A stretch of DNA of 64,000 nucleotides, from NCBI RefSeq assembly GCF_001570805.1, contig NZ_BCSJ01000003.1, positions 186,001 to 250,000 on the forward strand, given 5' to 3'. Positions within the stretch are counted from its first letter, which is position 1, and each line of letters opens with the position of its first letter. This DNA is from Brevibacterium epidermidis NBRC 14811. GTDB lineage: Bacteria > Actinomycetota > Actinomycetes > Actinomycetales > Brevibacteriaceae. This document shows positions 29,615 to 57,137 of this stretch, piece by piece. Below the pieces are notes generated by a model. It searched no databases. It saw only the letters and a list, made by a program, of their open reading frames with translations, and was not told where the DNA came from. The translations under genes and the position numbers were made by a program.

Positions 29615-30988
29615 ATGAGCAAGTTCGCTGTCACCAATGCCAACACCGGCGAGGTCGAAGAAGAGTTCGCCTCGGTTCCGAAAGAAGAGATCCCCGCGTA
29701 CATCGATCGTGCCCATGAGGCACATCTGGCGTGGAAGGAGACCCCGCTTCGCGAACGCGCGGCGATCCTGCGCAAGTTCGCCGATCTCGTCGATGAGAAC
29801 GGCGAAGAGATGACCGACATCATCGGTCGTGAGATGGGCAAGATCAAGAAGCAGGGACTCGGCGAGGTCGACAAGGTCGCCCGCACCGCCCGCTGGATGG
29901 CCGACAACGCCGCCACCCACCTGGCTCCCACCCACCTGGCCGCCGCCGGTGCGGCTTCCAGCTATGTCGAGCACCAGCCGCTGGGCGTGCTGCTGGGCAT
30001 CATGCCCTGGAACTTCCCCTACAACCAGATCGCCCGCTTTGTGTTGCCGAACCTCATGGTCGGCAACTCGATCATCATGAAGCAGGCCTCGATCTGCCCG
30101 AAGTCCTCGCAGTACTTCGAGGATCTCCTCACCGAAGCGGGACTGCCGAAGGGCGTCTACCAGAACATCTACCTCGACTCTTCGCACGCCGAAGAGGTCC
30201 TCAAGGACTTCCGCGTCAAGGGCTTCTCGCTCACCGGCTCCGAGGGTGCCGGCGCCTCCGTGGCCGCGATCGCCGCGAAGTACTACAAGCGCGCCGTGCT
30301 CGAGCTCGGCGGCAACGACCCGGCCGTCGTCCTCGACTCGAAGGATGTAGCGTCCGTGGCGCAGAAGCTCGTCGGCCTGCGCCTGGCGAATGCGGGACAG
30401 GTCTGCACCTCGCCCAAGCGCATGATCGTCGTCGATGAGCTCTACGACGAATTCGTCGCCGAGGCCGTCAAGGCCACCGAAGCCATCAAGGTCTCGGACT
30501 TCGACGACCCCGAGGTCGGCATGGGGCCCGTATCCTCCGAAGGCGCTCGCGACGAGATCGTCGAGATGATCGACAAGGCCGTCGCCGATGGCGCGACCCT
30601 GCTCACCGGCGGCAAGAAACTCGACCGTCCGGGCTGGTTCATGTCCCCGGCCGTGCTCACCGACATCGACCCGCGTTCGGACCTCGGCTGCAACGAGCTC
30701 TTCGGACCGGCCGTGATGATCTACCGCGCCAAGGACGAAGAGGACGCGCTGCGTCTGGCCAATGACACCGAATACGGTCTCATGTCCTCGGTGTGGACCG
30801 ACGACCTCGAGAAGGGTCAGGAGTTCGGCAAGAAGATCAACGCCGGCATGACGCTCATCAACGCCCACATGGAGTCCGGACCGGAATACCCCTTCGGCGG
30901 CATCAACCGCTCCGGCTACGGCCGCGAGAACGCTCAGTGGGCGTTCCAGGCCTTCACCAACGAGCACCTCATCCGCGTGCACAACTGA
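29615..30988 (+). CDS. gabD: succinate-semialdehyde dehydrogenase (NAD(P)+)
   Basis: 457 residues of the aldehyde dehydrogenase superfamily, SSADH branch by overall similarity (IMPWNFPYNQIARFVLPNLM, GSEGAG). Catalytic Glu230 in LELGGNDP and Cys264 in GQVCTSPKR are present. It oxidises succinate semialdehyde to succinate in GABA and polyamine breakdown. GAAAGGA precedes the ATG at 29615. It is complete and ends at a strong terminator. A decayed duplicate of its last 215 bases lies at 58546-58679, at the far side of the accessory region. Confidence 0.93.
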   Translation: MSKFAVTNANTGEVEEEFASVPKEEIPAYIDRAHEAHLAWKETPLRERAAILRKFADLVDENGEEMTDIIGREMGKIKKQGLGEVDKVARTARWMADNAATHLAPTHLAAAGAASSYVEHQPLGVLLGIMPWNFPYNQIARFVLPNLMVGNSIIMKQASICPKSSQYFEDLLTEAGLPKGVYQNIYLDSSHAEEVLKDFRVKGFSLTGSEGAGASVAAIAAKYYKRAVLELGGNDPAVVLDSKDVASVAQKLVGLRLANAGQVCTSPKRMIVVDELYDEFVAEAVKATEAIKVSDFDDPEVGMGPVSSEGARDEIVEMIDKAVADGATLLTGGKKLDRPGWFMSPAVLTDIDPRSDLGCNELFGPAVMIYRAKDEEDALRLANDTEYGLMSSVWTDDLEKGQEFGKKINAGMTLINAHMESGPEYPFGGINRSGYGRENAQWAFQAFTNEHLIRVHN

Positions 30989-32008: not shown

Positions 32009-32671
32009 CTATGCGCGATACGCCCGAAGGAACACTTCGACGCCAGCACTGACCCAGGTTGTCCGCTCTCGTGCACTGATTTTCGAACTGGCGACAATGT
32101 TGGGGCGCGCGGACACGAGCTGAGCAAAGTGCGCTGCAGCAATGTCGGATCGCTGGACGAGAAGAAGTCCACGCTCGCCCCAGGTAGTGAATGCCGCAGC
32201 CAAAGTATCGAGGACCAACCCGGGTCCTGCGCGGTACCACGTTTCGACGAGGGCAGGCTCCTCATGGAACGCTATACCATGCATCTGATCCATAAGTATG
32301 CGGTGATCTTCTGATGGTGCGTCCGATAGAAGCCACGCCGTTGCGAAGTTGGTCAATGCCGATTCTCGGTCATCAGCACTGGTTACACCCAATAAGTACT
32401 TCTCAATGAGTCCAGTAATATCCTCGGCCACGCGAGCTGCAGATTCGGCAATGATTTCTGTGCACAGCGTCGATTTATCCGTGAAATGCTTGTAGATCGT
32501 TCTCGTGGACACCTTGGACGCAGCGGCGATAGCGTCGATACTTGCTCGTTCGATCCCATGCTGGGCCAGCACTTTCCGACCGCCTTCCATAATTGCAGCG
32601 CGCTTCTCAGGGCGCAGGCGGCTCGTTGATTTTCCGGCCGGGCCTGACGTGCTCGATGTCGAAATCATCAA
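32009..32671 (-). CDS. TetR-family regulator
   Basis: 220 residues. HTH at about 38-66 (IDAIAAASKVSTRTIYKHFTDK) preceded by a Ser/Thr-rich N-terminus, then a TetR_C-type helical domain. Begins with two consecutive ATG codons. It lies 44 bases downstream of the DHA2 MFS gene on the same strand, so it is a likely local regulator of the pump. The gap contains TGATGCACTTGATGCA, a direct repeat that could be an operator. Confidence 0.85.
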   Translation of the reverse strand: MMISTSSTSGPAGKSTSRLRPEKRAAIMEGGRKVLAQHGIERASIDAIAAASKVSTRTIYKHFTDKSTLCTEIIAESAARVAEDITGLIEKYLLGVTSADDRESALTNFATAWLLSDAPSEDHRILMDQMHGIAFHEEPALVETWYRAGPGLVLDTLAAAFTTWGERGLLLVQRSDIAAAHFAQLVSARPNIVASSKISARERTTWVSAGVEVFLRAYRA

Positions 32672-32715: not shown

Positions 32716-34185
32716 CTATTTTACCTCGCTCCATTCAGACACGCTCTTATAGCCGCTGCGTTCTGGCCGCCTGAGAAGGAGCATGACCATGATTGCGCCC
32801 ATTGCGCAGACAACCGCGAGACCCCACTGAGCAAAAGTCCAGCCGAAGCTTATTGCACCCGCGAGTACCGTATCGCCGCCGATGTCGGCACCCGTCGCGA
32901 GCCTGCCCGCAAGTTGCGGATCGCCGGTACTCAGCCCGATGAGCCCCACGATCGCAGACCCGAACAGGGCCATAATGAGAGTTGTCGAAGCTCCTCGAAC
33001 TGTGTTAATCAAGCCGGCTGCTTGCCCGTGCTTCTCCGGCTCAGCGTGGTTCATGGCTTGCGCGTCCACGATGCCTGTGGCCGTCCCCAGGCCGAGACCG
33101 ATGAGCACCAGAGGAAGGATCAGGTCTGATGCGGAGGAATCGAGAGACACCGCAAACCCGAGCCATGCATTACCGGCAGCGATGGCGAACAGGGCCGGTC
33201 CGATCATCAGTCTCGCCGGCACCTTGGTGCTCAGCTGCCCCACCAGCATCGGCAGCAGCACCATAGGGACGACTGGAGTCAACAACATCAGCCCCGACTG
33301 TGACGGAGAGTATGCGAAGACACTTTGCAGGTAGCTGGGCAAGTGGGCGAGCAGCCCGGCGTAGCCGAACGACACTGTCGCCAACGCGATCAACCAGCCC
33401 AAAAAGTTCGGGTCGCGCAGAAGCGAGAAATCGATGATGGGAGAAGGGACTTTGCGAACATGAAAACGAAGTAATGCGAAGGACACAAGCGCAAGCATGC
33501 CGGCTCCAAGAGTGATCGGATTCGCCCAGCCGCGACTCGGAGCCCCCGCTATCGCGAGCATAAAGGAGCAGAGGCCGGCAACGACCAACGCGGCACCGAT
33601 CCAATCAATCCGTACCGATTCGTCCCCGTGAGATTCGGGCAAGGCGAATGATCCGCCGAACACGACCAGCCCCGCCAGAGCGAACGCCATGAATGCGCCC
33701 CGCCATCCGAGGGCTTCGACCAGTCCTCCCGATACGACGGGACCCGCCGCAAGTCCGATTGCGGCCGCTGTCCCGATCGCGGCGAACATTCGACTTCTTG
33801 CAGGACCGTTGAATGCCGCTGCAGCAGTTGCCGCTCCACCAGCCATCACTGCCGCGGCCCCCATTCCACTCAGCACTCTCCCCACGAGGAGAATAGAGAT
33901 GGTCGGTGCAAAAGCGGCAATTGCCCCGCCGAGAACGTAGATGACAACGCCCAAGCGATAAGTTCGTCGCCGCCCGAGGTTGTCCCCCAGGGAACCTGTG
34001 ACCAGCATGAGCGATGAAGCTGCGAGAAAGTACCCGGTGACTACCCATGACGCCGCAGAACCTGCGGATTCCAGGTCATCACCGATGGCCGGCACTGCAA
34101 CACTGGCCCCGGACATCGCCAACGGCAGGAGCACTCCGCCGAGGAGAATAACAGGCACGGCCCAAGATGATGTTCGCGTGTTCAT
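32716..34185 (-). CDS. DHA2-family (14-helix) MFS drug efflux pump
   Basis: 489 residues. N-terminal helix 1 SGASVAVPAIGDDL, motif A GSLGDNLGRRRTYRLG, motif C GPVVSGGLVEALGWRGAF: typical 14-TMS drug:H+ antiporter of the EmrB/QacA type. The ATG overlaps the stop of the FMN-reductase gene by 4 bp (ATGA), so reductase and pump are made together. A similar coupling of a flavodoxin-type reductase with another DHA2 pump is seen at 54128-56208. This suggests export of a reduced or redox-active toxic compound; the substrate is not known. Confidence 0.88.
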   Translation of the reverse strand: MNTRTSSWAVPVILLGGVLLPLAMSGASVAVPAIGDDLESAGSAASWVVTGYFLAASSLMLVTGSLGDNLGRRRTYRLGVVIYVLGGAIAAFAPTISILLVGRVLSGMGAAAVMAGGAATAAAAFNGPARSRMFAAIGTAAAIGLAAGPVVSGGLVEALGWRGAFMAFALAGLVVFGGSFALPESHGDESVRIDWIGAALVVAGLCSFMLAIAGAPSRGWANPITLGAGMLALVSFALLRFHVRKVPSPIIDFSLLRDPNFLGWLIALATVSFGYAGLLAHLPSYLQSVFAYSPSQSGLMLLTPVVPMVLLPMLVGQLSTKVPARLMIGPALFAIAAGNAWLGFAVSLDSSASDLILPLVLIGLGLGTATGIVDAQAMNHAEPEKHGQAAGLINTVRGASTTLIMALFGSAIVGLIGLSTGDPQLAGRLATGADIGGDTVLAGAISFGWTFAQWGLAVVCAMGAIMVMLLLRRPERSGYKSVSEWSEVK

Positions 34186-34790
34186 GCCGCTAGCAGTTTC
34201 TGCCGCACGGTGATCATCGCTTCAGCCCAGGTCACCACCGCATGCAACGTGGCAGTCAGGTCGGCCAGCTGTCGTTGCGCCGGGGCGAATGCTCCTGTCG
34301 TCGCAGGGTCGGACTCGTCCCAGCCTGTGTAGTCGAAGTCCGTAGACGTCGACAGCACGACCTGTTCGCCAACATCGGCAAGTCCCAGCTCGGCGGCGAT
34401 CATACGCATTTGTTCAACTGCGCGCACGCCACCTTGCATTCCGTAGCTGACGAATCCGGCCGATTTGTTGATCCATTCGTTGTACAGATAGTCGATGGCA
34501 TTCTTCAACGGACCCGGTACCCCGTGGTTGTACTCGGAAAGAACGAAGACGTACCCATCGTATGAATCGATGGTCTCAGCCCACTGCCGCGAATAGGAAT
34601 GTTCGTACACACCCCACGCTGCGGGTGCAGGCTCGTCTAGGACCGGGAGGGCGAAGTCGACCAGATCGACGATGTCGAAGTGCACTCCGTCCGGCGCTTT
34701 CGCTCGTCCGTGCTCGTATACCCAGTCGGCCACCATTCGGCCACGACGGTGTACGCGGGTGCTGCCGACGATGATTGCGATGCGAGTCAT
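34182..34790 (-). CDS. NADPH-dependent FMN reductase family protein, paralogue 1
   Basis: 202 residues, flavodoxin-like fold. GSTRVHRRGRMVADW binds the FMN phosphate and SEYNHGVPGPLKNAIDYL is the family signature. Members reduce FMN, quinones, azo dyes or chromate. I start at the ATG at 34790 because MTRIAIIVGSTR is the family N-terminus. A perfect palindrome (34810-34832) sits 20 bases upstream, in the promoter. The second paralogue (46544-47149) is clearly homologous over its whole length and has the same upstream palindrome. This gene begins the reductase-pump-TetR series. Confidence 0.9.
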   Translation of the reverse strand: MTRIAIIVGSTRVHRRGRMVADWVYEHGRAKAPDGVHFDIVDLVDFALPVLDEPAPAAWGVYEHSYSRQWAETIDSYDGYVFVLSEYNHGVPGPLKNAIDYLYNEWINKSAGFVSYGMQGGVRAVEQMRMIAAELGLADVGEQVVLSTSTDFDYTGWDESDPATTGAFAPAQRQLADLTATLHAVVTWAEAMITVRQKLLAA

Positions 34791-34809: not shown

Positions 34810-34832
34810 GTAAAGTACTTCTTGTACTTTAC
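34810..34832 (-). promoter_or_regulatory. operator palindrome GTAAAGTAC-N5-GTACTTTAC (FMN reductase 1)
   Basis: A perfect 9-bp inverted repeat, spacer TTCTT, 20 bases upstream of the reductase start. The same arms with spacer TTCTG lie before the second reductase gene at 47168-47190. AGTAC...GTACT-type sites are known for MarR/DUF24 (HxlR) redox-sensing repressors controlling azoreductases and nitroreductases, so such a regulator is a reasonable guess. Confidence 0.75.
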
Positions 34833-34939
34833 ATACGATAGCGACTGACTCCTTCCGGCACAAGACCCCTCGGTTACATTCGCGAAAACAGTGAGCATCT
34901 ACGCGAAAGTTTGATTTCACCTTCAATCGCGCTTCTCCG

Positions 34940-35970
34940 CCTCGAGCAGCGATCGTCACGTCGAACGGTCACTGAATACTCGTCGATCCCGCGCTCATCC
35001 CTGCCCGGGTCGCGTCGAAGGCACAGCTTGAGCGCCACGGTTCGCGAGGCCAGGTTCACTGGTCGCGTCCGAGCTACAACCGACCCGTCCCCTGAGTGAG
35101 TGCCGGCACATATCAGCGCCGCCATGACCGCTTCGGTCACATACTCCAACCCCCACACGTCCGGATGGAACCGAGCTATCAGGCTGCGTGCCGGCCAGCC
35201 ATTGATATGCATTCTATTCATCCCGCAGTAGCCCATGATCCGCCCCGTCCGCGTCTCCCGCACGCACCAGTACCCGTAATCGTGAGCCACCCAGCGGTGA
35301 AGCCACATCTAGATGAGCTTGTTCGCCTCCTGAAGGCCACTGACGAAGTCCGTAGGGTTGTACGTGACAGCGCGGTGGTCTCCGACGACGGCGAATACTT
35401 CCGCGGCATCTCTACACTCAGGTACCTCGAGAACCAGGCGTGATGTGTGGAGACAGCGGGGACCCGCTCACAAGGGACGAATCGCTTGTAAGCTCTCCTG
35501 CTCCGTGGCCATCTTGATCCGCAGCAGAGTCTGGACCATCCGGTTCCTCATGCTGCGCGTGAACGCGGCGGTTCCGTCCTTGTACTTTTCGGTCATTACA
35601 TATGCCCGGTCCGAGATTCCTTCTGGAGAATCGCGGCGGTGGACCACCCGGGCCTTCTCCCCGTCCACCGACTTCAGAGTGAATGACTACACCAGCCAGT
35701 TTTCGTCGACCTGAAATGTCATTTCGCAGCAGGGCACGAACCGCACGATCTTCGCAGATGTTGACTATGTCATTCCGTAGTCGTGGTTGCTGTCGACGAG
35801 GCGGACGCCAAGTGATGCGGCCTCCGCATCGTCGCAAAATTCCGTCGAAACGATCTGTGGGCTCCAGTCCGCAACTCGACGAGGCTCGCCGACCAGGTCC
35901 CAGAACTTTGCAAGTAGGGCATCGACGGTTGCTTCGGTTCCAATTCCTCGAGCACTGACCCACGATCTCT
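34940..35970 (-). pseudogene. SRPBCC-GNAT fusion protein, decayed paralogue of 53116-54135
   Basis: Reading one minus-strand frame throughout gives a protein alignable to the intact gene at 53116-54135: VADWSPQIVST against the same motif, SFTLKSVDGEKARVVHRRDSPEGISD, MVQTLLRIKM, then the acetyltransferase part (YGYWCVRE, GYCGMNRM, RFHPDVWG). Four in-frame stops interrupt it: TAG at two positions where the intact copy has Trp, one TGA and one TAG, all explainable by single transitions. No frameshift is needed between them. The start codon is lost, and the C-terminus is diverged. Confidence 0.85.
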
Positions 35971-36099
35971 ATTCCGCTCGACGCCGCCGTGTCAACTGCT
36001 GCCCAGTCGGCCCTTCAACGCGGATTCACTGCCCATGCACGGCGGTGACAGTACCGGAGGACGGCAACATCGACGACGACGCTGTCGAACTCTCTTTTG

Positions 36100-36122
36100 G
36101 TAAAGTACAGTTTTTACTATAC
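36100..36122 (+). promoter_or_regulatory. imperfect operator-like palindrome before the alpha/beta hydrolase pseudogene
   Basis: GTAAAGTA (36100-36107) and TACTATAC (36115-36122) are 7/8 complementary with a 7-base spacer. The left arm matches the palindromes before the two FMN-reductase genes, so it may be a decayed or variant site for the same regulator, 98 bases upstream of the hydrolase start. Confidence 0.45.
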
Positions 36123-36220
36123 TTTTGTTTTGCCATCGACTCGCGGTGTGGGCAATTCGATGAAGGTACCGGTAAGCGATTTCGGGTCAACGACGACGCC
36201 GATTCAGATGAGGATTACAT

Positions 36221-37019
36221 ATGACAATCACGAACCATGACTTCAAATCAGCACTCATCGAGCGCGAAAACATACAACTGCACGCCCTATGGCAACAGGG
36301 GTCCGGGCCTCCGGAAATGGTCGCGCCTGGGGCCATGGCCGACTCGCACGATTTCGCTGCGGTAGCGCAGGCGATGAACTACGCAGGCCCCGGCGTGGAT
36401 CATCGTCCGTCGAGGCCGTGGCCACAGCGACGCGCAGGGTGCCGACTACAGCCTGCACACCGAGATCGGTGATCTGCGAGCTTGGATCGATCATCTTGAA
36501 CAGCCGGTGCACCTCGTGGGGTGGAGCCACGGGGAGGGACGATCTCACTCGAAAATGCCGCCCAGGACGCGCGTTGGATCAGTGGTTACCTACGACCCTG
36601 TGCTTCCTCCGTTCGCTAAGGGTGCCGTGTCGATGCTGGAAGAAGCCGATCTCAATGAACGGGTTGTCGTCATCAACCGCGACATCAGCGGGCTAGAACC
36701 CGAGATTGTGGAAGCAATGAAGGATCAGTCCGAGTGGTCACACCTGCGAAAACTGGCCATTCCCCTCGCTGCGGAACTCGCCGCGCTCAACAATTTCACG
36801 CCCAGTAAGAAATGGGAGAGCGTGGCTGCGGCGCTGATCGTCGGCGAACGTTCACATGCGGTCGAACCTTATGGTCCTGTCTTCGACCGTGTATCGGAGC
36901 GCATCCCACAGGCATCGGTCACGGTTTTACCCGGGCAGGGACACCTGGCTCACGTCGAAGACCCCACTCTTCTGGGCACCGCCATCGGAACTATCCTGAC
37001 GAAAGGAGTGTCGACATGA
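36221..37019 (+). pseudogene. alpha/beta hydrolase, frameshifted paralogue of 56367-57137
   Basis: The start (IQLHALWQQGSGPPEMVAPGAMAD) and the end (VTYDPVLPP, INRDISGLEPEI, GQGHLAHVEDP) match the intact hydrolase gene at 56367, but the frame shifts near 36390 (the expected continuation AWIIVRRGRGHSD is one base out) and again around the nucleophile elbow GWSHG (about 36530-36590, where 15-20 codons read out of frame). The 3' part still ends in an ATGA overlap with the peptidase gene, so the operon structure survives although the enzyme does not. Confidence 0.85.
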
Positions 37020-37930
37020 CGAGCGTCAACAACAGCCCCCAGTCTTCTGTGACCGCACTACGGGACTGGATGTTCAGAGTCCGAATCGTACTCGCCTACG
37101 CCGTGGTCGCCATTATGTTGATCACAGCCGCGGCAGCATTTCTCCCGACCCCGCAACCATTGCTGTCCGTACTGACCGATGCGTCGTATGCCGCACTGAC
37201 GCTAGCAGCGATCTTTCTGGCTGTTTGCGCCTTCGGCCGGCCCCGCCATCCAACCCAGCTACGCATTCTGCACCCACCTGTCAGAGGCCGATGGCTGGCG
37301 GCGAACAGCCCCGCAACGAAGGTTCCCAGCCATGGACTGCGCATGTTCGGACAGTCTCACGCCATCGACCTCGTCGCGTGGCCCGAGGAGAGCCAGGTCG
37401 CCGTAGACTACCCCACGACGACCGGCATGCTCCCAGCCCATCAGTTCCCGGGTCATGGGCTACCCGTACTCGCCATGGTCGATGGGGTAGTCGCCAATGC
37501 GACCGATTGGCAGAGAGACCACCGGAGCCGGACAAGTCCGCTCTCCCATATCTACCTCGCCATCGAGCAGAGCGTGAGAACAATCGGTGGCCCCCACTGG
37601 ATCTTCGGCAACCACGTCACGATCCGTGCAGACGACGGGACGTTCGCCGTCGTAGCCCACGTACGCAGAGGGTCTCTTCGAATACAGGTGGGCGATCGAG
37701 TCAAGGCTGGAGATCACATCGCCGACTGCGGCAACTCGGGGAACAGCACAGAACCTCATGTTCATGCCCAACTCATGGACCGTCAATCCCTCTGGTTGGC
37801 CCACGGACTTCCCATGGGATTCCAGCACGCCGAATTCTTACCTACAGATGGGGAGACCGACCTGATTGAAACGCACACACATGACCTACCAGCCAACGGC
37901 CAGCTCATGATCACAACCGATCCGTCGTGA
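37016..37930 (+). CDS. membrane-anchored M23 (LytM-like) peptidase domain protein
   Basis: 304 residues. Two N-terminal membrane helices (about 20-45 and 51-70), then a LytM fold with His115 and Asp118 (QSHAIDLV) and His248/His250 (EPHVHAQL) as zinc ligands; GNHVTI and GNSGNSTEPH are typical M23 motifs. M23 enzymes cut glycine-containing or cross-bridge peptides in the wall. The ATG overlaps the hydrolase pseudogene stop and has GAAAGGAG upstream, so translation was coupled to a gene that is now broken. Metal ligands appear intact, so activity is plausible. Confidence 0.82.
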   Translation: MTSVNNSPQSSVTALRDWMFRVRIVLAYAVVAIMLITAAAAFLPTPQPLLSVLTDASYAALTLAAIFLAVCAFGRPRHPTQLRILHPPVRGRWLAANSPATKVPSHGLRMFGQSHAIDLVAWPEESQVAVDYPTTTGMLPAHQFPGHGLPVLAMVDGVVANATDWQRDHRSRTSPLSHIYLAIEQSVRTIGGPHWIFGNHVTIRADDGTFAVVAHVRRGSLRIQVGDRVKAGDHIADCGNSGNSTEPHVHAQLMDRQSLWLAHGLPMGFQHAEFLPTDGETDLIETHTHDLPANGQLMITTDPS

Positions 37931-38109
37931 CTCGCAATGAAAACGAGTGAGTACCGGATTCTTGCACTTTGCCATCGTCTGGGGCTTCTCATTGACGGCC
38001 GGGCTCAACGAGACGAACCTGCTGCGTTGTCTACTGTCATGCCTCTGCAGACCGCAGCCGCCGCTTGATGCATTGCGGGCTACTCAAGGCACACGCCATC
38101 GATGAAGAT

Positions 38110-39243
38110 TCAGGCGTTGACCGTGTCACCATACGAAGGCTCCAACTCGGAGACCAGATTGCTGCCGGCCACCTCGTGCCGAATCGCCTCCCCCAGCATA
38201 CGGGCTGCCTTCGAGTATCCCGGCAATTTCAGCGCCTCAACCACAGCGTGGGTGATCTGCCCGGCGGGTGCATCTCGTGGAAGCGTGATCCCTGCTCCAC
38301 GTAAGGACACAAGAACCGCGTTGTCTGCCTGGTCACGCCCCTGCGGGAGGATCACCATCGGCAGCCCAGCAGTCAGGGATTTCATGACAGTGCCGTGCCC
38401 GCCGTGGGTGATGACCAAACCGGTGTGCGTCATCAAGTCGTGGTGCGGGGCGGCCCGAACGATCTCCACACGGGCGCCACCGCTCAGATCGCAGAGGTCG
38501 ATGCTGAGCCCGGTCGTCACGACGGCGCAAACGGGCAGAATGGACAACGTTTCGATGACGTTCTGCAGAACCCCCAACTGCCCCTGCTCTGCCGACGACA
38601 TCGCGACCAGGATCAGAGGACCCTCGCCCCGAGGTTCGACAGAGTGGTGCGAATGTGCCCAGCCCGGGTCATCAAGCATCGGATCCACGTACCGCACAGT
38701 AGAATCACAGTTGTTCGCAATGTCGAATGCATGGGAACTCAGAACCAGCTCACGCCGAGCTCCGTGGACCTGCTGCCACGCATTGCGCAATTGCGGCAGG
38801 TCAAGATCCCGGCGCAGGGCATTCAACCGAGGCATCACATAGTGCGCAAGCATCCGAGTGCCGATCTCGCCCAGTAGGCGGTCCCTTCCCCGTCCGACGA
38901 AGGTCTGCGAAGGCGACAACACCATTCCCATCGGTGGCTGGCTTGGCGTGGGCATGGGATAGATATTTGGAATAAGGACACCAAAAGACACCCCGACGGA
39001 CTGGGCCGCAACCATCGCACCGAAAACGGTGAAGGAATACACGACACGGTCAAGGCGCGCAGACCGCAAGTGCGGCAGTAGATCCTCGGCCCATCGGCGC
39101 GCCGGCCCAGCGATCATATGGTCCGCCATTCCTCCTGCAAGGCTGAACGGACATCCCAGCTCCCAGTCGCGGTACGAACTGTGGGAGGGCTGGCCATGGT
39201 GATCCGCCCCTGCTCGCGCGGGCGTCAGAAGCTCGGGGGCCAA
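38110..39243 (-). CDS. GT1 (UGT/MGT-type) glycosyltransferase, probably 5'-truncated
   Basis: 377 codons. The C-terminal donor-binding domain is intact: GLVITHGGHGTVMKSL and GLPMVILPQGRDQADNA, the motif of macrolide or flavonoid glycosyltransferases. The N-terminal Rossmann half starts abnormally: the usual first strand and glycine-rich loop (about 30-40 residues) are absent, and the only start is TTG at 39243, 44 bases from the divergent LysR start. The gene probably lost its 5' end when the LysR segment was joined. Acceptor unknown; relatives inactivate macrolides. Confidence 0.7.
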   Translation of the reverse strand: MAPELLTPARAGADHHGQPSHSSYRDWELGCPFSLAGGMADHMIAGPARRWAEDLLPHLRSARLDRVVYSFTVFGAMVAAQSVGVSFGVLIPNIYPMPTPSQPPMGMVLSPSQTFVGRGRDRLLGEIGTRMLAHYVMPRLNALRRDLDLPQLRNAWQQVHGARRELVLSSHAFDIANNCDSTVRYVDPMLDDPGWAHSHHSVEPRGEGPLILVAMSSAEQGQLGVLQNVIETLSILPVCAVVTTGLSIDLCDLSGGARVEIVRAAPHHDLMTHTGLVITHGGHGTVMKSLTAGLPMVILPQGRDQADNAVLVSLRGAGITLPRDAPAGQITHAVVEALKLPGYSKAARMLGEAIRHEVAGSNLVSELEPSYGDTVNA

Positions 39244-39287
39244 GTTGCATCACAAAGTCACCTTCATTTCACGAAAGGTACGTTCAC

Positions 39288-40157
39288 ATGGACATGTCCA
39301 AGCTCGAAGCATTCATCCTCGTCGCTGAGGAGGAATCGTTCAGCGCCGCCGCCGATAGAATCGGTACGGCCCAATCGACTATCAGTTCGCGCATCAAGGA
39401 ACTCGAGACAGCGCTGGGCCATCGTCTTCTCCTGCGCAGCACGCGGAGGGTGAGCCTGTCTCCGGTGGGAGCTGCCGTCCTACCTGCAGCTCGGACCGCT
39501 CTGTCGTCATTAGACGCGATACGCCAGGTCGTCGACGACTTGGCAGGAGTCCGCCATGGACGGATACGGCTCGGCATCATCGCCGAGGCCACAGTTCCTG
39601 GGCTGAGCAGAATCCTGGCAGACTTCGCCAGTGACTTCCCCGGCATTGATCTCGTCATCACTTCGCAGTCAAGCGATGCCCTCGAACGCGCCATCGCTGA
39701 CGGCTCTTTGGACATTGCCCTGGTGGTCCGGTTCGGCACCACATCCCTGCGATGGGAACGGCTGCTCCATGATTCACTTATCGTGGTCGGTGACTCGCCA
39801 CCGCAGAATGGGGAGTCCGCGATCTCCTTTTCAAAGCTGCATGAAGCCCGCCTGATCGTCCTCGATGGCGGGGTCGGTGTTCGACAAGCACTGGAGACGG
39901 AGGCTCGGCGGGCTGGAATCTCACTGAACATCGTCGCCCAGGTCGCGACCCCTGCCATCGCCGAGGAGCTGTACGCTCGAAGCATTGGTTGGCTTGTACT
40001 ACCTGACTCGTTCGCACAAGGTCGGGGCGTACCACTCGTGGGTGAGCACGGCATTGAACCCCAGGTCGACGTCGGTCTCGTCACCGGTCCCGACCTCCAC
40101 GCCCCGGCTACAGAAATCCTCGTCACCCGTCTCATCGAGGGGATTGGAAACCATTGA
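39288..40157 (+). CDS. LysR-family transcriptional regulator
   Basis: 289 residues. N-terminal wHTH (about 1-60: LEAFILVAEEESFSAAADRIGTAQSTISSRIKELE) and a substrate-binding domain from about 90. AAAGG precedes the ATG. Diverges from the truncated glycosyltransferase gene with a 44-base gap, the usual arrangement of a LysR protein with its target, but the original target may have been replaced. Complete. Confidence 0.88.
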   Translation: MDMSKLEAFILVAEEESFSAAADRIGTAQSTISSRIKELETALGHRLLLRSTRRVSLSPVGAAVLPAARTALSSLDAIRQVVDDLAGVRHGRIRLGIIAEATVPGLSRILADFASDFPGIDLVITSQSSDALERAIADGSLDIALVVRFGTTSLRWERLLHDSLIVVGDSPPQNGESAISFSKLHEARLIVLDGGVGVRQALETEARRAGISLNIVAQVATPAIAEELYARSIGWLVLPDSFAQGRGVPLVGEHGIEPQVDVGLVTGPDLHAPATEILVTRLIEGIGNH

Positions 40158-40176
40158 GCCGAGTCGGGACTCCTGC

Positions 40177-40893
40177 TCATCTCGGGGTCACCCGGCTCCT
40201 GATCCGAGCAGCCGGAGTGCCCGCCCAGACACTCGCACCCGGCACCGCTGCGATAGACGAAAGGGGGCCGGACAGTACACGCCAGAACGGAACGGGCATA
40301 CGAGTCCGCCGCAACACAGAAGGGCTCCAATCGACTCCATCGCATATCCAGGCGAGGAACCGTAGCGCTTCGAGGGGTGTATAACCTGCAGCCCATGCAC
40401 GCTGTTCGAACTCCTTCCATTCTTGATGGTTGAGCACACGGGTCACAATGTCCATCCCGTCGGCTTCCTCGTGCTCGAGGTGCGTCCGCAACGGACCTTC
40501 CAGCACATCGAGGGCGGCAAGAACCTGCTGTGGCCCATTGCGTGCGGCGACAAGACCGCGGGCAGCAACCTCAAGTTCCGCAAGCGGTTCATCGATTGCC
40601 AGGTGCTCATTTTCCATAGCATTGAGCAGTTCAGAGCTTTCCGGTGAGCGCTCGAGCAGCAGGGGCCACAGATAGTGGTCTTCTCCCTCATGGTGCCGGC
40701 GCAACTCACCCATATCCCACAACAGCATCCGACCGAGCCTGCGTGCACGCCGCGGACTCAACCAATGCGGGTTCTCTAGCAGGAATCGGGCTCGTTCGAG
40801 ATCTCGGCGCAGTGCCGCATGGAAGAGAGTCATCGTCAAAGTGTCTGCGGGTCTGGTTGCATCCGGCGACCGCTTCACGGGCATTTCACTCAT
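40177..40893 (-). CDS. hemerythrin-domain (HHE) protein
   Basis: 238 residues. Two HHE cation-binding repeats with His25 (LFHAALRRDL), His67-His68/Glu69 and His73 (RRHHEGEDHYLWP), His97 (NEHLAID) and His138/His141 (RTHLEHEEADGM), enough to bind a di-iron centre. Such proteins sense or store oxygen or NO, or act in redox defence. The C-terminal 60 residues are unassigned. Convergent with the LysR gene, 19 bases apart. Confidence 0.85.
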   Translation of the reverse strand: MSEMPVKRSPDATRPADTLTMTLFHAALRRDLERARFLLENPHWLSPRRARRLGRMLLWDMGELRRHHEGEDHYLWPLLLERSPESSELLNAMENEHLAIDEPLAELEVAARGLVAARNGPQQVLAALDVLEGPLRTHLEHEEADGMDIVTRVLNHQEWKEFEQRAWAAGYTPLEALRFLAWICDGVDWSPSVLRRTRMPVPFWRVLSGPLSSIAAVPGASVWAGTPAARIRSRVTPR

Positions 40894-41513
40894 AGCTGGC
40901 TCCTTGCATGGTCAAATAGACTGCAGTCGTCACGTTGTCAGCTGGGCCACGGGCCGCTGGCCTCCGGTTTCGCTGCGATTCATCGGCCGATACCCACACT
41001 TGCGCTCTTATAGCGCGAACTTCATATGTGCTCATACTCTGACCTTTCTTGGCGCATTGAAATTCAATTCTGTCGCCCGTAAACCATGCCGTCCAACCGA
41101 TTTCTTCGGGTATATTGATCGTCTATATCGATAAGTCGGAGAACAGAACTCCTCTTATGCATGTGCCATAAAGACAAAATCCGCTAAAAACCAGGACGTG
41201 CCCGTGAAGAAACCCCAGCGGCCCAGCGTCTTCGCCCCAGTCAATCTGGGTCTTTATCGGAGATTGCATCTTTCAGGGGTTCATCAATAGTTGCAGACGC
41301 GATTCTACGAGTACTCGTCTCGGGAACTTGAGGGCCGCAAATGATGGGTGGGCTTCGTATTCGTTCTCGGGTTTACGACACAAAATGTCGATAGCCGCAA
41401 CTTTACGAACTAGACTGAAATCATTTCCTGTCAGTCCAGTACCGTAAAGAACGTGGCCAGTCGAATCTGGCAAGGCCAGTAACAAAAGACCGCACAGCAG
41501 AGGAGCGACAAGG
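40894..41513. other. non-coding, AT-richer stretch
   Basis: No supportable gene. Contains AT-rich segments (for example 41105-41135 with TATATTGATCGTCTATATCG) that could hold promoters for the hemerythrin gene (leftward) and the DUF1707 gene (rightward). Confidence 0.5.
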
Positions 41514-42164
41514 ATGTCGGCCGAAAATGACCAGTCTGATGACCCATCCCGTACCGTTCTAATCGGGGACAATGAACGCGATCACGCAATAGAGACCCTC
41601 CGGGCTGCTGCTGGTGACGGCCGTATCACGATCGTCGAACTCGAAGAACGCATGGAACTGGTCGAAGCCGCTCGATTCCCTATCGATCTCGATCGCCCGC
41701 TAGCGGGGCTTGGCACCGAGTTGCCCTCGACCCAAATACTGACTGGCGCCACAGGAACCCAGAGATCGGCGGGTTCTGGCTACGGCTGGTCTCCTGACAA
41801 CAGAGAGGTCCTCCGCGCACCGTGGAACGGCCTTATCCGACGAGGGAGATGGCTGGTGTCACCGTACCTGCATTGCAAGCCGGCTGGCAGACTGCTTGAA
41901 CTCAACTTCCTCGATGTCATCACTGGCCTAACAAGCATCGACATCCGCGTCTCCGCACGCACTGGCACACTGAAGATCGTTGTACCTGACAGCTGGGGTG
42001 TCGACATTTCCGAGCTCGATCGCAGCCGGATCGCAGTCATCACCTTCAAAGCCAACGCTGCCCCGATAGACAAGCATCCCGTCGTCCGCGTCAGAGGGAA
42101 CATCGGATCTGGAGTGCTCCAAGCCCTCGGTCCCAATCGCCGGGAACGACGACTAACGCCGTGA
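41514..42164 (+). CDS. DUF1707 domain protein
   Basis: 216 residues. DUF1707 (about 15-62): VLIGDNERDHAIETLRAAAGDGRITIVELEERMELVEAA with the conserved GDNERD start. The C-terminal half lacks a clear family but has beta-rich DUF2154-like character (IDIRVSARTGTLKIVVPDSWGVDI), often seen in sensors of envelope stress. No membrane helix. GAGGAG lies upstream of the ATG. Stands alone; the next 270 bases (to 42437) hold nothing recognisable. Confidence 0.8.
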   Translation: MSAENDQSDDPSRTVLIGDNERDHAIETLRAAAGDGRITIVELEERMELVEAARFPIDLDRPLAGLGTELPSTQILTGATGTQRSAGSGYGWSPDNREVLRAPWNGLIRRGRWLVSPYLHCKPAGRLLELNFLDVITGLTSIDIRVSARTGTLKIVVPDSWGVDISELDRSRIAVITFKANAAPIDKHPVVRVRGNIGSGVLQALGPNRRERRLTP

Positions 42165-42437
42165 CCTGACCCGAACCACCACACTGCACCTGGCCCTCGA
42201 ATGCAACGAGCGCCCCGGGTGATCATCGTCCGAGAGCGACAACTTCAACCTGGCCAATCGGCTTCGGTCGAGGTCAAGGATTATTGTCAAAACCCGGGTT
42301 TCGTACGGGCTCCTTACCTCGGTTTCTTAAGCAGACGTAACCTCATCCACGGACTGGTTGATCCACTCCGAACGGACCTCGGACGGCGGGCGGCGGCTCA
42401 GCGCTGAATACAATCGTGGCTGGTTGTATCAAGCCAC

Positions 42438-43536
42438 CTATTTCGGCGTTTCAGCTATCGTCTCGATCAACCTCCACTGCACTTTCCGGTCGACGAACTC
42501 GGCTTTGTAGGCCGAGATCAGAGCTTCGGCCATAGCGTTATCGTACGAGTCCCCGCGCGACCCCACCGACGCGACGATCTCTGATTCCGCCAGGGTCTCT
42601 ACGTAGCGAGTCGATCGGATTTGAATGCCACGATCGCGATGGTGGACTAGCCCGGACACAGCTTCGCCAGCCCGATACTTCGCCACTAGCGCCATTGGCG
42701 GAGCGTCCCTGGCCAGCGACTCCCGCATATGGTTCGTCACCTGCCAACCGACGATCTCGCGATGGAAAACATCAAGGATGAACGTCGTGTGCACTTACCC
42801 AGCCTGCGTTGGCACATACGTGATGTCAGCGACCCACAAGCAGTTCGGTGCCGGTGCCGCGAACTGATGTTCGACGCGATCATCCGGGCACTCCTCAGTC
42901 CTAGCTGAGACCGTCTTCGGACGCTCCCGCTGGAACCCGTCGATGCCCGACTGTCGCATCAACCGCTTCGCCGTGCAGCCAGCAACATGCCTGTACTGGT
43001 CAGTGTACTCCCGGTTGATCGCCTTCCATATCAACTGCTGCCCGTAGCCGTAGTAGGAATAGTTCGCCTCATAGGCATCCTCGATCATCACCATCAGAGC
43101 CTGATCCCGTCGAGCTCTGGCTGCTGATTGATGCTCTTGAACGCATACACGAGCTCACAGCAATCCGTGCCACAGTCCCGGACAGGGCGCGCACTATTGG
43201 TGTGATGCCGAACTCGTCGCGATTGTCGTCGCTGAAGCCGAGACTCCCTTCAGAATCTCGTTCGCTTTCTTTGCTTAGGTCAACTCAACCTGCAGCCGCC
43301 GGTTCTTCGCTTCCAGGTCGACCGACTCGGCCGGCGGGGGTGGCTTTACCGATGTCCCTGTGCTTACGCACCCAGACTCGCAGAGTCTGTTTACTCAGAC
43401 CGAGCTGGTTCGCGACGCGGATGATCGCCCCGTTCGCCGTCTCGGGATCAGCTTGAGCGTAGATGACGAGATCGACGGCACGCGCCCCGAGGTCATCGGT
43501 GTATTTCACTGGCAAGAGAGTATCTCCATCTCCCAA
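42438..43536 (-). mobile_element. IS3-family insertion sequence remnant
   Basis: OrfA (about 43536-43250) has an HTH typical of IS3 (LGLSKQTLRVWVRKH) and runs on, after a frameshift, into DLEAKNRRLQVELT and AKKANEILKGVSA. OrfB (43094-42438) contains the integrase core: WVADITYVPTQAG, HHRDRGIQI and NAMAEALISAYKAE give the D, D and E positions. It is broken by an in-frame TAA at 42795-42797, and ends early (WRLIETIAETPK) before the usual C-terminus. Terminal inverted repeats are not identifiable. Inactive. Confidence 0.85.
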
Positions 43537-43590
43537 TCACCCCGCCTCTATTATCCCCGGGGCGATTCGCGTCTAGTCGTCCAGGTCTAG

Positions 43591-45189
43591 TCATCCAGAC
43601 TTTATTGAGGCCATCAGCTTTGGTCCGGTGATGACCAGTCGTTCGACTGTCAGCGGCCCGGCTACTGCAATGCTGATCCCCCCAGTGGTGAGCCCAAAAA
43701 TGAGGTGGAAAACCCAGAGGTCTCCAAGTTGCAAAACGGCCGCCAGTATTGCCGGAAGAAACGAAGCAAATAGCACGAGGGCGAACGACATCATCTGTCC
43801 GCCCGCCGGGTTTCCAGCATTTTGTCCAGTCGATATTCGTTCACGGGCATCGCGGCCGACCGCTGGCATGAGTGCGCTTATCAGTGGTGCGCAGCCGCAG
43901 GCTACCCCGACCGCAGCGAGAGTGGCTCCCAACGCAACGTGTGCCAACGACGATTCAACAACAAGGCTGAGAGTTGTGCTGGCTACTAATATCGGAAGCC
44001 CGAACATCAGCATCCAGGCAAGTTGCCGCCCACGAACGTCAGCGCGGATCGCACCTGGGGTCGTCAGCAACTGCCAGAGTGCTGTGCCATCAAGTGCATA
44101 GGTGTTGATGGCCACCATTGCCGCGAAAACAGCGGCAGCAACACCAACAAACGGGACGCTCCAATACCACGCAGTCGGAATCACAAGCAGCACCATGAGC
44201 AGTGGTGTCATCCAAGCGTGGCGCAGTTCAAGCGCCCTTTGCGGATCGCGTAACCAAGTTTTCAATTCACGCTTGGCAACAGCGGTCACCGGGTCTGTGC
44301 GCAGTGGGCTTGCATACCTCCGAGCTGATAGTGCCCGCCTAGTTCGCACCTTTAGCCGGCTGCTGGCCCGCGTTGGAGGCTGTCTCAGTGTCGCCGCAGT
44401 GAGCACCACCCACACCATCCAAAGCAATACCCCGAGCGACAGGAGACCGACTAATGGCAGCAGCACCACGACTGGCGCAGCCGAAACCGAGGCGGCATTG
44501 ATTGCTGCCATTCCCCAACCCGTCGGCGCAGCAAGAAGAACTTGTTCCAGTGGACCCGGCAGCTCGGTCCAGAATTCGCCAGTATAAGCGTCTGCGCGAC
44601 CACTACCCAGGTCTGGCACGAGGAATGCGGCGACCGGAATCCACCCGGCAAAGGATATTGCCAGCAGTGCAGACATCTGGAACGCGGCAAACCACCCACC
44701 AACACGAGACCGCAGCATGAATACGACCAGAGCGCCAACGCTACGGCCCAACCACACGAAGAAGAACAGTTGCGTCATGACTGCCACAAGCGCCGCAACG
44801 ATAGTAATCCCGTCGTGGACCGACGCGAGTACGACGAATCCGCTCAAGGACGCGACGGTGATGACTGTACCCACACTCAACATCTCGCTGGGTGCCAGTG
44901 CCGCAGCGATCCGAAACGGTGGCTTCGGCAACGTCCGGAACCACTGCGGGTTGAGTACCGGGACTGCTCCAGGAAGCAGAATCGGCCCGAGAAACCAAGC
45001 GACTCCAAGAATGCTTATAGCTGCGGTAAGCCAGCTGTCGTCGAGCGTGCCAGATCTGGTGAGAGCCGCTAGTGTCACAACGCCAGAAGCAACAACCAAA
45101 CCAGTGATGAGCCCGAAAACTCGATCGCCATGCGGGCCATGCCGAAGTATGCGGAGTTTAAGCGAAACAAACCCACGCCACATGCTCAT
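43591..45189 (-). CDS. ABC-type transporter permease (large, 12 or so helices)
   Basis: 532 residues, two halves of about six membrane helices separated by a basic cytoplasmic stretch (about 270-300: RQPPTRASSRLKVRTRRALSARR). No solute-binding or ATPase motifs. The ATG overlaps the stop of the ATPase gene (ATGA), so it is the membrane partner of that ATPase. The arrangement resembles ABC-2-type exporters for peptides or antibiotics. The substrate is unknown. Confidence 0.82.
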   Translation of the reverse strand: MSMWRGFVSLKLRILRHGPHGDRVFGLITGLVVASGVVTLAALTRSGTLDDSWLTAAISILGVAWFLGPILLPGAVPVLNPQWFRTLPKPPFRIAAALAPSEMLSVGTVITVASLSGFVVLASVHDGITIVAALVAVMTQLFFFVWLGRSVGALVVFMLRSRVGGWFAAFQMSALLAISFAGWIPVAAFLVPDLGSGRADAYTGEFWTELPGPLEQVLLAAPTGWGMAAINAASVSAAPVVVLLPLVGLLSLGVLLWMVWVVLTAATLRQPPTRASSRLKVRTRRALSARRYASPLRTDPVTAVAKRELKTWLRDPQRALELRHAWMTPLLMVLLVIPTAWYWSVPFVGVAAAVFAAMVAINTYALDGTALWQLLTTPGAIRADVRGRQLAWMLMFGLPILVASTTLSLVVESSLAHVALGATLAAVGVACGCAPLISALMPAVGRDARERISTGQNAGNPAGGQMMSFALVLFASFLPAILAAVLQLGDLWVFHLIFGLTTGGISIAVAGPLTVERLVITGPKLMASIKSG

Positions 45190-45941
45190 GACAACCAGTC
45201 CAACTCGCGCTGAGGAGCCACACCAATGAATTCAACGAAAGCCGCGTTGAGCGTCCTTCCAGCTGCAACCTCAGCAATCGTGCCATCGGACAGAATTCGC
45301 CCGCGGCTCATGAGAGCGACGCGCGTGCATGTGCGCTCAATGACATCCATATTATGACTGGATAACAACACTGTGCCGCCCCCGGTGACGTACTGCCGGA
45401 GGAGCGCTTCGATCGAATGTGCAGAAATCGGGTCTATCGCTTCGAACGGCTCATCGAGTACAAGTACCTTGGGTCGATGCAGAAGTGCGACTGCGAGACC
45501 GATCTTCTTCCGCATACCGGTGGAGTAGTCGACGATGAGCGTATTCGGTGCGCTGTCAAGTTCAAGAATAGTCAGCAGATCATCCGACCGTTCTTGCCAA
45601 CGCGTATCCATGCCGCGCAACCCGGCCGTATACTCCAACAGTTCTGCGCCTGTCAGGCGCTCGGGCAGCGACAGCCCTTCCAACATGATGCCGAGGGTAC
45701 CAAGAGCCTGCTCTCGCTCTCGGACGATGTCGAATCCAGCGAGGCTGACGGTACCTGCGGTTGGAGCCAACAAACCGGCGATCATCGACAGGGTAGTGGA
45801 CTTCCCAGCCCCATTCGGCCCGACGATGCCATAGAAGCTTCCGGCCTCTACGCTCAGGTCAATGGCATCGACTGCTGTGAAATCTCCGAAATCTTTTGTG
45901 AGTTCTCGAAGTCGAACTGCGGATTCAGTAGATGTATTCAT
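45186..45941 (-). CDS. ABC transporter ATPase (CcmA/drug-export type)
   Basis: 251 residues. Walker A GPNGAGKST (41-49), signature STGMRKK (140-146, unusual but typical of this subgroup), Walker B VLVLDEP (159-165), H-loop His in SSHNMD. I start at the ATG at 45941 after AGGATGAAATC; an upstream in-frame ATG gives an unlikely Cys/Asn-rich extension. Couples to the permease by 4-bp overlap. Sits 600 bases downstream of an FMN reductase on the same strand, too far to assume one transcript. Confidence 0.92.
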   Translation of the reverse strand: MNTSTESAVRLRELTKDFGDFTAVDAIDLSVEAGSFYGIVGPNGAGKSTTLSMIAGLLAPTAGTVSLAGFDIVREREQALGTLGIMLEGLSLPERLTGAELLEYTAGLRGMDTRWQERSDDLLTILELDSAPNTLIVDYSTGMRKKIGLAVALLHRPKVLVLDEPFEAIDPISAHSIEALLRQYVTGGGTVLLSSHNMDVIERTCTRVALMSRGRILSDGTIAEVAAGRTLNAAFVEFIGVAPQRELDWLS

Positions 45942-46543
45942 GATTTCATCCTGAGGATTACAGTTGTATCGGTTCTGCACACAGCGTTGGCAGGGCATCT
46001 GATGGTCCCGGAACCAGGACGGTGGTGAGCGGTGCTGACCGTAAGCTCACCCGACCGATGGCCGCAGGCGAACACGGTCCCCCACCGGGGTTCAGCCCAC
46101 ATCGGCTCCTATCAACGGTGATCTCTCCGTGGCCTGGGAAGCCAACCTCGGCCCCGGCCTGCCGAGCACGGTGCAATTCTGCGACCGGTAGATCCCTGGC
46201 TCGCGACAATCCCTTCTGCTTCTTAGCCTGAAAATGGCGGCGAGAGCTCCGAAAGTCTGCCCCGAGGCGGCTCGTCACCAGATTTTGACGCAAGGGGGTC
46301 CAGCCATGACGCTGCCCCGCGCAACTGGCTCACGAGAACCCGATGCTCCGCCGGTGGCGCCGAAGGAGCAATCCGAATGGACCCGAGTCTTTGAAGGCTG
46401 GTTCGATGCACCCCAAGTTGAGATTCGAAAAGTGGAGGGTGGGCCGCACTCGCGCCCTTCACCATCAGAAAGAACATGGGATCTTGGACTGACATACCGA
46501 CACCTCCTCACGGCTCAGTTCCGTGCACTGCCCGCAGGGATGC
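45942..46543. other. unassigned 600-base stretch, GC-richer than its surroundings
   Basis: Open frames exist on both strands but none has a recognisable domain or start. The composition looks more like the flanking core DNA than like the island, and it contains the only CCGAGGCGGC motif I found in the island (46262-46271). Possibly a fragment of another locus. Confidence 0.4.
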
Positions 46544-47149
46544 TCATACTGAAATAGAAACACGAACCGAGGCCATGGCTTCAGCCCACACAACAACCGA
46601 ATGCAGAGTTGCAGAGAGATCGTCCACATGCCGAGCTTCTGGGGCAAAGTCGCCCGCTGTTGCGGGATGAGCAAGGTCAGATTCTGTATAGTCGAAGTCG
46701 GTGAAAGTTGAAAGAACAACCTGCTCGCGAACATCTGCCAGTCCAAGTTCGGCCGAGATTGTACGCATCTGTTCGACCGCTCGAACTCCACCATCTGCGC
46801 CGTAGCTGACAAACCCTGCGGATTTGTTCGTCCATTCGTCGTACAGGTAGTCGATCGCATTCTTCAGCGCACCAGGTACGCCGTGGTTGTATTCCGCGAT
46901 GACGAAGACGTAACCGTCGTAAGCGGCGATCGACTCTGCCCATCTACGGGTGTGATCATTCTGGTAGATCCCCCACGCAGCTGGATAGGGCTCATCGAGA
47001 ACCGGAAGGGAATAATCTGCCAGGTCAATCAAATCGAAATCGACTTCGACCGGCGAGTGGGTGCGACCATACTCATAGACCCATTCAGCTACTTGACGTC
47101 CACGACGATGTTGACGGGTACTACCGACGATGACGGCAATCTTTGTCAT
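46544..47149 (-). CDS. NADPH-dependent FMN reductase family protein, paralogue 2
   Basis: 201 residues, alignable end to end with the product of 34182-34790 (identical runs include YDGYVFV and EYNHGVPG). GSTRQHRRGRQVAEW is the phosphate loop. Start at 47149 has GGAGG upstream. A perfect palindrome with the same arms as before paralogue 1 lies at 47168-47190. Unlike paralogue 1 it has no MFS pump attached. The two copies must descend from one duplication or two arrivals. Confidence 0.9.
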   Translation of the reverse strand: MTKIAVIVGSTRQHRRGRQVAEWVYEYGRTHSPVEVDFDLIDLADYSLPVLDEPYPAAWGIYQNDHTRRWAESIAAYDGYVFVIAEYNHGVPGALKNAIDYLYDEWTNKSAGFVSYGADGGVRAVEQMRTISAELGLADVREQVVLSTFTDFDYTESDLAHPATAGDFAPEARHVDDLSATLHSVVVWAEAMASVRVSISV

Positions 47150-47167
47150 GCTAACCTCCATTGGTTT

Positions 47168-47190
47168 GTAAAGTACTTCTGGTACTTTAC
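47168..47190 (-). promoter_or_regulatory. operator palindrome GTAAAGTAC-N5-GTACTTTAC (FMN reductase 2)
   Basis: Arms identical to those at 34810-34832, spacer TTCTG instead of TTCTT, and almost the same distance (19 bases) from the start codon. Two paralogues keeping arms and distance, while the surroundings differ, indicates a functional operator. Confidence 0.75.
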
Positions 47191-49696: not shown

Positions 49697-50044
49697 TCAG
49701 CATGACTTTCTCATTCGTAGACCAGTCCGGTAAAGCTCGATCAGCAGCGGACGAATTTCCCATCCGGTCGCGGTCAATCGATAAAGAGTCCGGTTTGGAA
49801 ATCCCCGGAACACCGTTCGGCTGACCACGCCACACTTGCGCAGATGTGTCAGAACATCAGTGAGGACTTTGTCGCTCAATTTTGGCAAGCTCTGCGATAG
49901 TGCCCCATACGACTTGTCTCCATGCATCAGTTCTCGCAGAACGAGGGTTGTCCATCGACCCTTGAGAGCTTCAAGTGCCACTTCGACCGGGCAGTCGTGA
50001 TGAGGCTCAAGTGTGCGCCCATCCATCCCGGGAACGAGAGTCAT
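49697..50044 (-). CDS. HxlR-family regulator
   Basis: About 115 residues from the ATG at 50044: DCPVEVALEALKGRWTTLVLRELMHG, LSDKVLTDVLTHLRKCGVVSRTVF and a C-terminal helix to RMRKSC. The cysteine before PVEVAL is the conserved redox-reactive Cys of DUF24/HxlR proteins such as YodB and QorR. An upstream ATG at 50119 (with GGAGG) would overlap the divergent gene's start, so I prefer the shorter form. It is a candidate to bind the GTAAAGTAC palindromes of the reductase genes, because YodB-type repressors control such reductases; this is inference. Confidence 0.82.
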   Translation of the reverse strand: MTLVPGMDGRTLEPHHDCPVEVALEALKGRWTTLVLRELMHGDKSYGALSQSLPKLSDKVLTDVLTHLRKCGVVSRTVFRGFPNRTLYRLTATGWEIRPLLIELYRTGLRMRKSC

Positions 50045-56366: not shown

Positions 56367-57137
56367 ATGGAGTCACGGTTCATCTGCTCGGGCGGCGTGC
56401 AGTTGCACGCGCTCTGGCGCTTCGGCAACGGACCTGGAATCATCATCGTTCCCGGGGCAATGGCCGACGCAGCCGATTTCGTCCCGGTTGCAGAAGCGAT
56501 GGACGACCGTAGTCCCCTGCTGATCGTCAACCGTCGCGGCCGCGGGGATAGCGGACCTCAGGGGACAGATTACGACCTCCCCACCGAAGTCGACGACTTG
56601 CGTGCATGGATCGACGAAGTCCAGGGAGAGGTCATTCTGGTGGGTTGGAGCCTGGGCGGCACAATTGCCTTAGAAGCCGCCGCTCAAGATAGTCGCGTCA
56701 CTTCCGTTATCGCCTACGATCCGGTCCTACCGCCCTTCGCCGGAGAGGCAGTTCCAGCACTTGCCGCTGCCAACCTAGACGAACGAGTCACCATCGTCAA
56801 TCGGGACATCTCAAACGTACCGGCAAACGAAGTTGCTGCGATGCGTGATACCCCGGCTTGGGCTCATCTTCGCGACCTGGCTGGACCACTGGCGTCAGAA
56901 CTGGAGGCGCTGAACAGCTTCTCACCGACGGTAGGCTGGAGTGCGATCGACGCGTCCCTCCTTGTCGGAGAACATTCTCAGGGAGTTCTGCCATACGGTC
57001 CTGCTTTCGAACGTGTCTCCGCAGCCATCCCGTCTGCTGAAGTCACCGTGCTCAAGGGTCACGGACACCTCGCCCATGTCGAGGACCCCAAATTCCTCGG
57101 AACTGAGGTCCAGCGCCTGCTGAGGTCAAAACAGTGA
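56367..57137 (+). CDS. alpha/beta hydrolase
   Basis: 256 residues. Nucleophile elbow GWSLGG (Ser95), oxyanion region PGAMADAADF, and catalytic His in GHGHLAHVED. A compact hydrolase without lid insertion; substrate unknown. The intact paralogue of the pseudogene at 36221-37019. ATG at 56367 after AGGAAGG. Overlaps the TetR start by 4 bp (GTGA). It diverges from the flavodoxin-pump-SRPBCC/GNAT operon, so both are probably controlled by that TetR. Confidence 0.88.
   Translation: MESRFICSGGVQLHALWRFGNGPGIIIVPGAMADAADFVPVAEAMDDRSPLLIVNRRGRGDSGPQGTDYDLPTEVDDLRAWIDEVQGEVILVGWSLGGTIALEAAAQDSRVTSVIAYDPVLPPFAGEAVPALAAANLDERVTIVNRDISNVPANEVAAMRDTPAWAHLRDLAGPLASELEALNSFSPTVGWSAIDASLLVGEHSQGVLPYGPAFERVSAAIPSAEVTVLKGHGHLAHVEDPKFLGTEVQRLLRSKQ

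Follow-up and report, generated by a model that had tools for sequence, protein, structure and literature searches.

A palindrome shared by two FMN reductase operons of Brevibacterium epidermidis, the probable operator of a TetR-type regulator

The stretch of Brevibacterium epidermidis NBRC 14811 DNA that was analysed (64,000 nucleotides, hereafter the window) contains an island in which two paralogous FMN reductase genes, red1 and red2, are preceded by the same palindrome. This arrangement raises the question of which protein, if any, recognizes the palindrome, and of which genes would be controlled through it. The features involved are collected in Table 1.

Table 1. Features of the window that bear on the palindrome and its candidate regulators. 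Strand is indicated by "+" or "-", and by "." for the palindromic sites.
Feature	Position	Strand	Remarks
TetR1, proposed cognate repressor	32009..32671	-	last gene of the red1-MFS-TetR operon, 220 aa; Pfam TetR_N E=3e-13, TetR_C_7 E=3e-11
MFS exporter, DHA2/EmrB type	32716..34185	-	489 aa; Pfam MFS_1 E=3e-48; overlaps the red1 stop
red1, NADPH-dependent FMN reductase	34182..34790	-	202 aa, heads the operon; Pfam PF03358 E=5e-35
Perfect site (putative operator) upstream of red1-MFS-TetR	34810..34832	.	GTAAAGTACTTCTTGTACTTTAC; also kept in S111 and S22
SRPBCC-acetyltransferase fusion pseudogene	34982..35938	-	interrupted by in-frame stops; faces away from the hydrolase pseudogene, with the third site in between; S22 copy intact
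Third site, decayed	36100..36122	.	GTAAAGTACAGTTTTTACTATAC; flanked by two broken genes
Alpha/beta hydrolase pseudogene	36212..37019	+	with a frameshift; intact relatives in the window (56367-57137) and in S22
Probable ABC exporter membrane protein	43591..45189	-	overlaps the ATPase gene; 73% identical to the B. antiquum operon protein
ABC exporter ATPase, DrrA-like	45186..45998	-	downstream of red2; B. antiquum counterpart directly after TetR
red2, second FMN reductase	46544..47149	-	71% amino-acid identity to red1; Pfam PF03358
Perfect site (putative operator) upstream of red2	47168..47190	.	GTAAAGTACTTCTGGTACTTTAC
HxlR-type regulator, the candidate first proposed	49697..50044	-	Pfam HxlR PF01638 E=2e-18, 66.7 bits

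The palindrome and its surroundings

The palindrome, GTAAAGTAC-N5-GTACTTTAC, spans 23 bases, and two perfect copies with identical arms (9-5-9) are present in the window, as the initial annotation had reported. Their closeness to the reductase starts is also borne out: the distance from the ATG is 19 bases for red1 and 18 for red2, where 20 and 19 had been given, a one-base difference in counting. The two sites are identical at 22 of 23 positions, against 22 of 60 in the upstream and 7 of 18 in the downstream flanks (ungapped comparison); because the site is so similar while its surroundings are poorly conserved, the palindrome appears to be maintained, in line with the selection originally proposed for it. 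A weaker site, already noticed as related, is found between two broken genes, with two mismatches over the 18 arm bases and one over the 16-base core.

These sites are few and specific to the island. When up to three mismatches are allowed, the window yields three matches, compared to a mean of 0.01 in shuffled sequences, and none of 100 shuffles reached three. At the same threshold, they are the sole matches in the whole host genome (3,703,261 bases). Many copies at unrelated positions had been named beforehand as an outcome speaking against an operator: it did not occur, because the genome-wide search returns only three places.

For the third site, a more complete version is available in Brevibacterium sp. 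S22, where a site with one mismatch is flanked by SRPBCC-acetyltransferase and hydrolase genes that are both intact. The association of this site with the hydrolase, first suggested by the pseudogene of the window, is therefore found also where the gene is whole.

Both reductases match the PF03358 model well above its cut-off of 24 bits (120.7 for red1 and 131.6 for red2). For the MFS exporter encoded after red1, the best NCBIfam model is TIGR00711 EmrB, with a score under its cut-off. TetR1 features a DNA-binding domain (PF00440 TetR_N, 49.6 bits against a cut-off of 24) and a C-terminal domain of the AefR-like type (PF14246 TetR_C_7, 43.9 bits against a cut-off of 22). Relatives of TetR1 found on plasmids are all below 40% identity, and the 15 kb region as a whole has no match among the plasmids searched.

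The regulator that accompanies the palindrome

As judged by sequence comparison, the 23-base palindrome is very probably the operator of TetR1. It lies near the promoter of the regulator's own operon or of a neighboring gene and is conserved along with the regulator, as looked for in the TetR family. Of 57 Brevibacterium genomes, four contain the operator, and TetR1 orthologues (54% identity or above) are found in exactly these four; a chance coincidence would have a probability of about 2.5e-6 if genomes were independent, a figure whose significance is overstated by their kinship. The four genomes represent three Brevibacterium lineages, because S111 is near-identical to the window.

For wider scans, an exact match to the core, GTAAAGTA-N7-TACTTTAC, was required. 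In an even sample of 395 genomes of the class, the core is present only in the genome of the window and in G273, a complete, single-contig genome from a third genus (after Brevibacterium and Salinispora) of the same order. In this sample, the TetR of G273 is the strongest TetR1 relative outside Brevibacterium (44% identity, E=1e-39), and the site lies between its gene and a divergent gene, coding for a reductase (59% identity). Further relatives were sought in the genus of G273, and none was found there. Among named genomes, Salinispora vitiensis was located from its TetR alone (45%): a perfect site is again found between the TetR gene and a divergent reductase gene (62% identity), and it is the sole site of that genome when up to two mismatches are allowed. 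In Salinispora oceanensis, a TetR at 44% is kept, and neither an adjacent reductase nor the operator is present. When the exact core was sought in 396 genomes from the order, none carrying the operator was without this TetR. Since three differently designed searches agree, the same protein appears to be joined to the same site.

Co-occurrence as such is weaker evidence than the fixed position of the site, relative to TetR and reductase genes whose products are 44–45% identical, because horizontal transfer may move the whole arrangement as a unit. The case for TetR1 thus lies mainly in the separate lineages (Brevibacterium, G273 and Salinispora) in which a matching site adjoins the gene. All operator-bearing TetRs have the same recognition-helix region, VSTRTIYKHF. 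It is also kept in some relatives with different upstream palindromes (Nocardia, Thermoactinospora), and is therefore, by itself, no proof of specificity. More distant TetR-reductase pairs of the class feature other palindromes in the shared gap, such as TACACCGATCGGTGTA (L062 6930-6985, L088 2130-2225), as a joint divergence of operator and regulator would predict; they may provide a series for the study of operator change.

The initial annotation had singled out the HxlR protein as the first regulator to test, on a model in which HxlR or MarR proteins act as redox sensors. HxlR/DUF24 redox repressors bind palindromic sites upstream of azo- and nitroreductase genes, and the palindromes described here likewise precede reductase genes. 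The HxlR domain of the island protein is confirmed, and its nearest NCBIfam models, although below cut-off, are those of the redox regulators RrpB and RrpA. The gene is present, among 19 genomes examined, in the same four operator-bearing Brevibacterium genomes, so that within the genus its occurrence cannot be told apart from that of TetR1. The agreement does not extend further. In B. antiquum the HxlR gene contains an in-frame TAG, yet two perfect core operators remain; in G273 no HxlR match exceeds 39% identity, and the best one is distant from the site. An intact orthologue is accordingly missing from both these operator-keeping genomes. In Salinispora vitiensis a relative (50%) is found about 1.9 Mb from the operator, and in the window itself the gene adjoins no perfect site. 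It is the TetR of the reductase operon, instead, which the initial annotation had named just as one of several regulators, that tracks the operator through Brevibacterium, Salinispora and G273, and it is very unlikely that the HxlR protein binds the 9-5-9 sites as a thiol-based sensor of quinone or electrophile stress. A palindrome of the HxlR gene's own was considered and dropped, as the sequence lies within its probable coding start. A literature search for HxlR/DUF24 operators gave a marginal match only.

Slightly less probable still is the binding of the sites by one of the other regulators of the island, TetR2 (57134-57745) or the MarR protein (57722-58201). Relatives of both occur in B. 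antiquum and S22, but over 9 kb separates either gene from the closest site, and neither is detected near the operator of G273, where the operator locus was examined. The TetR2 gene, moreover, follows a hydrolase gene, and its recognition region reads VSVQTIYSAY, compared to VSTRTIYKHF in TetR1.

The least credible reading is that the palindrome is no operator at all, being either a relic of a common ancestral red1/red2 operon or a leader RNA hairpin: the paralogues are indeed similar over a 623 bp block (69%) in which the site is contained, but the flanks of the site diverge as described above, its arms stay constant while the spacer varies in five lineages, and it is also found before an unrelated MFS gene in B. 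antiquum and between divergent genes in two lineages. The constant arms and drifting surroundings favor the interpretation originally proposed, in which a regulon of the island, flavin reductases included, shares this palindrome as its conserved operator.

The second operon and a probable join of two islands

The operator-bearing loci of two relatives help in reading the organization of the window. S22 (G041) contains a red1-MFS-TetR operon with the operator. It also contains a red2 pseudogene (L106 8637-9045; G041:C25), before which a perfect core site is kept, and after which the ABC genes are intact. In B. antiquum the order of the operon is reductase-MFS-TetR-ABC-ABC, with the site GTAAAGTAA-N5-TTACTTTAC in front. 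A second perfect site of this species precedes an MFS exporter of a different type (L014 8113-9617), to which nothing in the window was found to correspond.

The red2 operon of the window (red2-ABC-ABC) has no TetR gene of its own, while its B. antiquum counterpart has one. The gap between red2 and the ABC genes, about 550 bases long, contains no recognizable remnant of MFS or TetR genes. No NCBIfam model matched the probable membrane protein of the exporter. Judging solely from the identical operator arms, the operon is probably controlled in trans by TetR1, on which red2 and the ABC exporter would depend because a TetR gene is missing from the operon itself.

Most simply, the window may be read as two related islands joined together: the first is similar to the red1 cluster of S22, the second to the island of B. 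antiquum. The latter, as found in the window, is devoid of MFS and TetR genes: these were either lost here or inserted in B. antiquum.

Transposase-like reading frames are found between the two sub-islands (42438-43094). The 3' end of an aldehyde dehydrogenase gene, at 30922-30987, is found again on the other side of the island at 58614-58679, with 66 bp matching at 98.5% and a further 84 bp at 86%, a pattern reminiscent of the two ends of an inserted segment.

A broader reading, held with fair confidence and less firmly than the assignment of the operator to TetR1, is that two related resistance islands adjoin, and that the repressor of one, through the identical operator, controls the repressor-less operon of the other. 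The result would be a merged regulon, with two reductases and two exporters, and the repressor-operator pair would define an uncharacterized TetR subfamily, extending over at least three actinobacterial genera.

The proposed switch and its relation to known systems

TetR1 is most likely a ligand-responsive repressor of a small reductase/efflux regulon, as far as comparison of genes and sites can indicate. A dimer of TetR1 would bind the core in the promoter region and repress its own operon. It would also repress red2-ABC-ABC in trans and may formerly have repressed the hydrolase/SRPBCC pair, whose copies are broken in the window. A small toxic compound would release TetR1 and thereby switch on reductase and exporter, the former reducing the compound chemically, the latter exporting it. 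Repression, and release by a small molecule, are expected by analogy with characterized TetR proteins and with a survey of Streptomyces, where TetR regulators that have a divergent gene within 200 bp mostly repress that gene (PMC3511530). The gene products point to a toxic compound that undergoes reduction and export, and the regulon may serve efflux-linked resistance to drugs or xenobiotics just as well as detoxification of quinones or flavin-related compounds.

Several characterized TetR repressors with an adjacent target (TetR/tetA, QacR, EthR, ActR; PMC3511530) share with TetR1 a palindrome near the start of the target gene, a regulator encoded next to or inside the controlled operon, and exporters or enzymes as targets. 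Unlike theirs, the proposed targets of TetR1 include FMN reductases and a second operon lacking a regulator. AtsR of Corynebacterium glutamicum, involved in a multidrug response, is another TetR-type repressor encoded in an efflux operon, which it autoregulates through a palindrome in the upstream region, TGCAA-N2-TTGCA (PMC9210681). AtsR senses peroxide through cysteines (PMC9210681). TetR1 has a single cysteine, and outside Brevibacterium its operator-bearing relatives (Salinispora, G273) do not conserve it; a similar redox switch is, for this reason, not common to the TetR1 group. AefR-like regulators have only the C-terminal domain, matched above the curated cut-off, in common with TetR1, and for AefR itself (PDB 3cdl) the similarity is limited to the DNA-binding end. 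The HxlR/DUF24 repressors are similar in the placement of a palindrome before reductase genes, but beyond the genus the HxlR gene of the island ceases to follow the operator, and its copy in B. antiquum is interrupted.

Among the literature matches listed, none reports the putative TetR1 operator sequence for any regulator, and searches with either operator half returned, among the matches listed, only chance occurrences in unrelated work. A search for a precedent linking TetR and FMN reductase gave no direct match.

The analysis moves the candidate regulator from the HxlR to the TetR family, and would provide an uncharacterized TetR subfamily with a regulator, a 23-base operator and a set of targets, linking flavin reductases with exporters. 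The switch is of an ordinary kind, whose repressor, site and target genes may now be named together. With its repressor-less second operon, the window would offer an uncomplicated example of how, once two islands have joined, a regulator comes to control further genes in trans.
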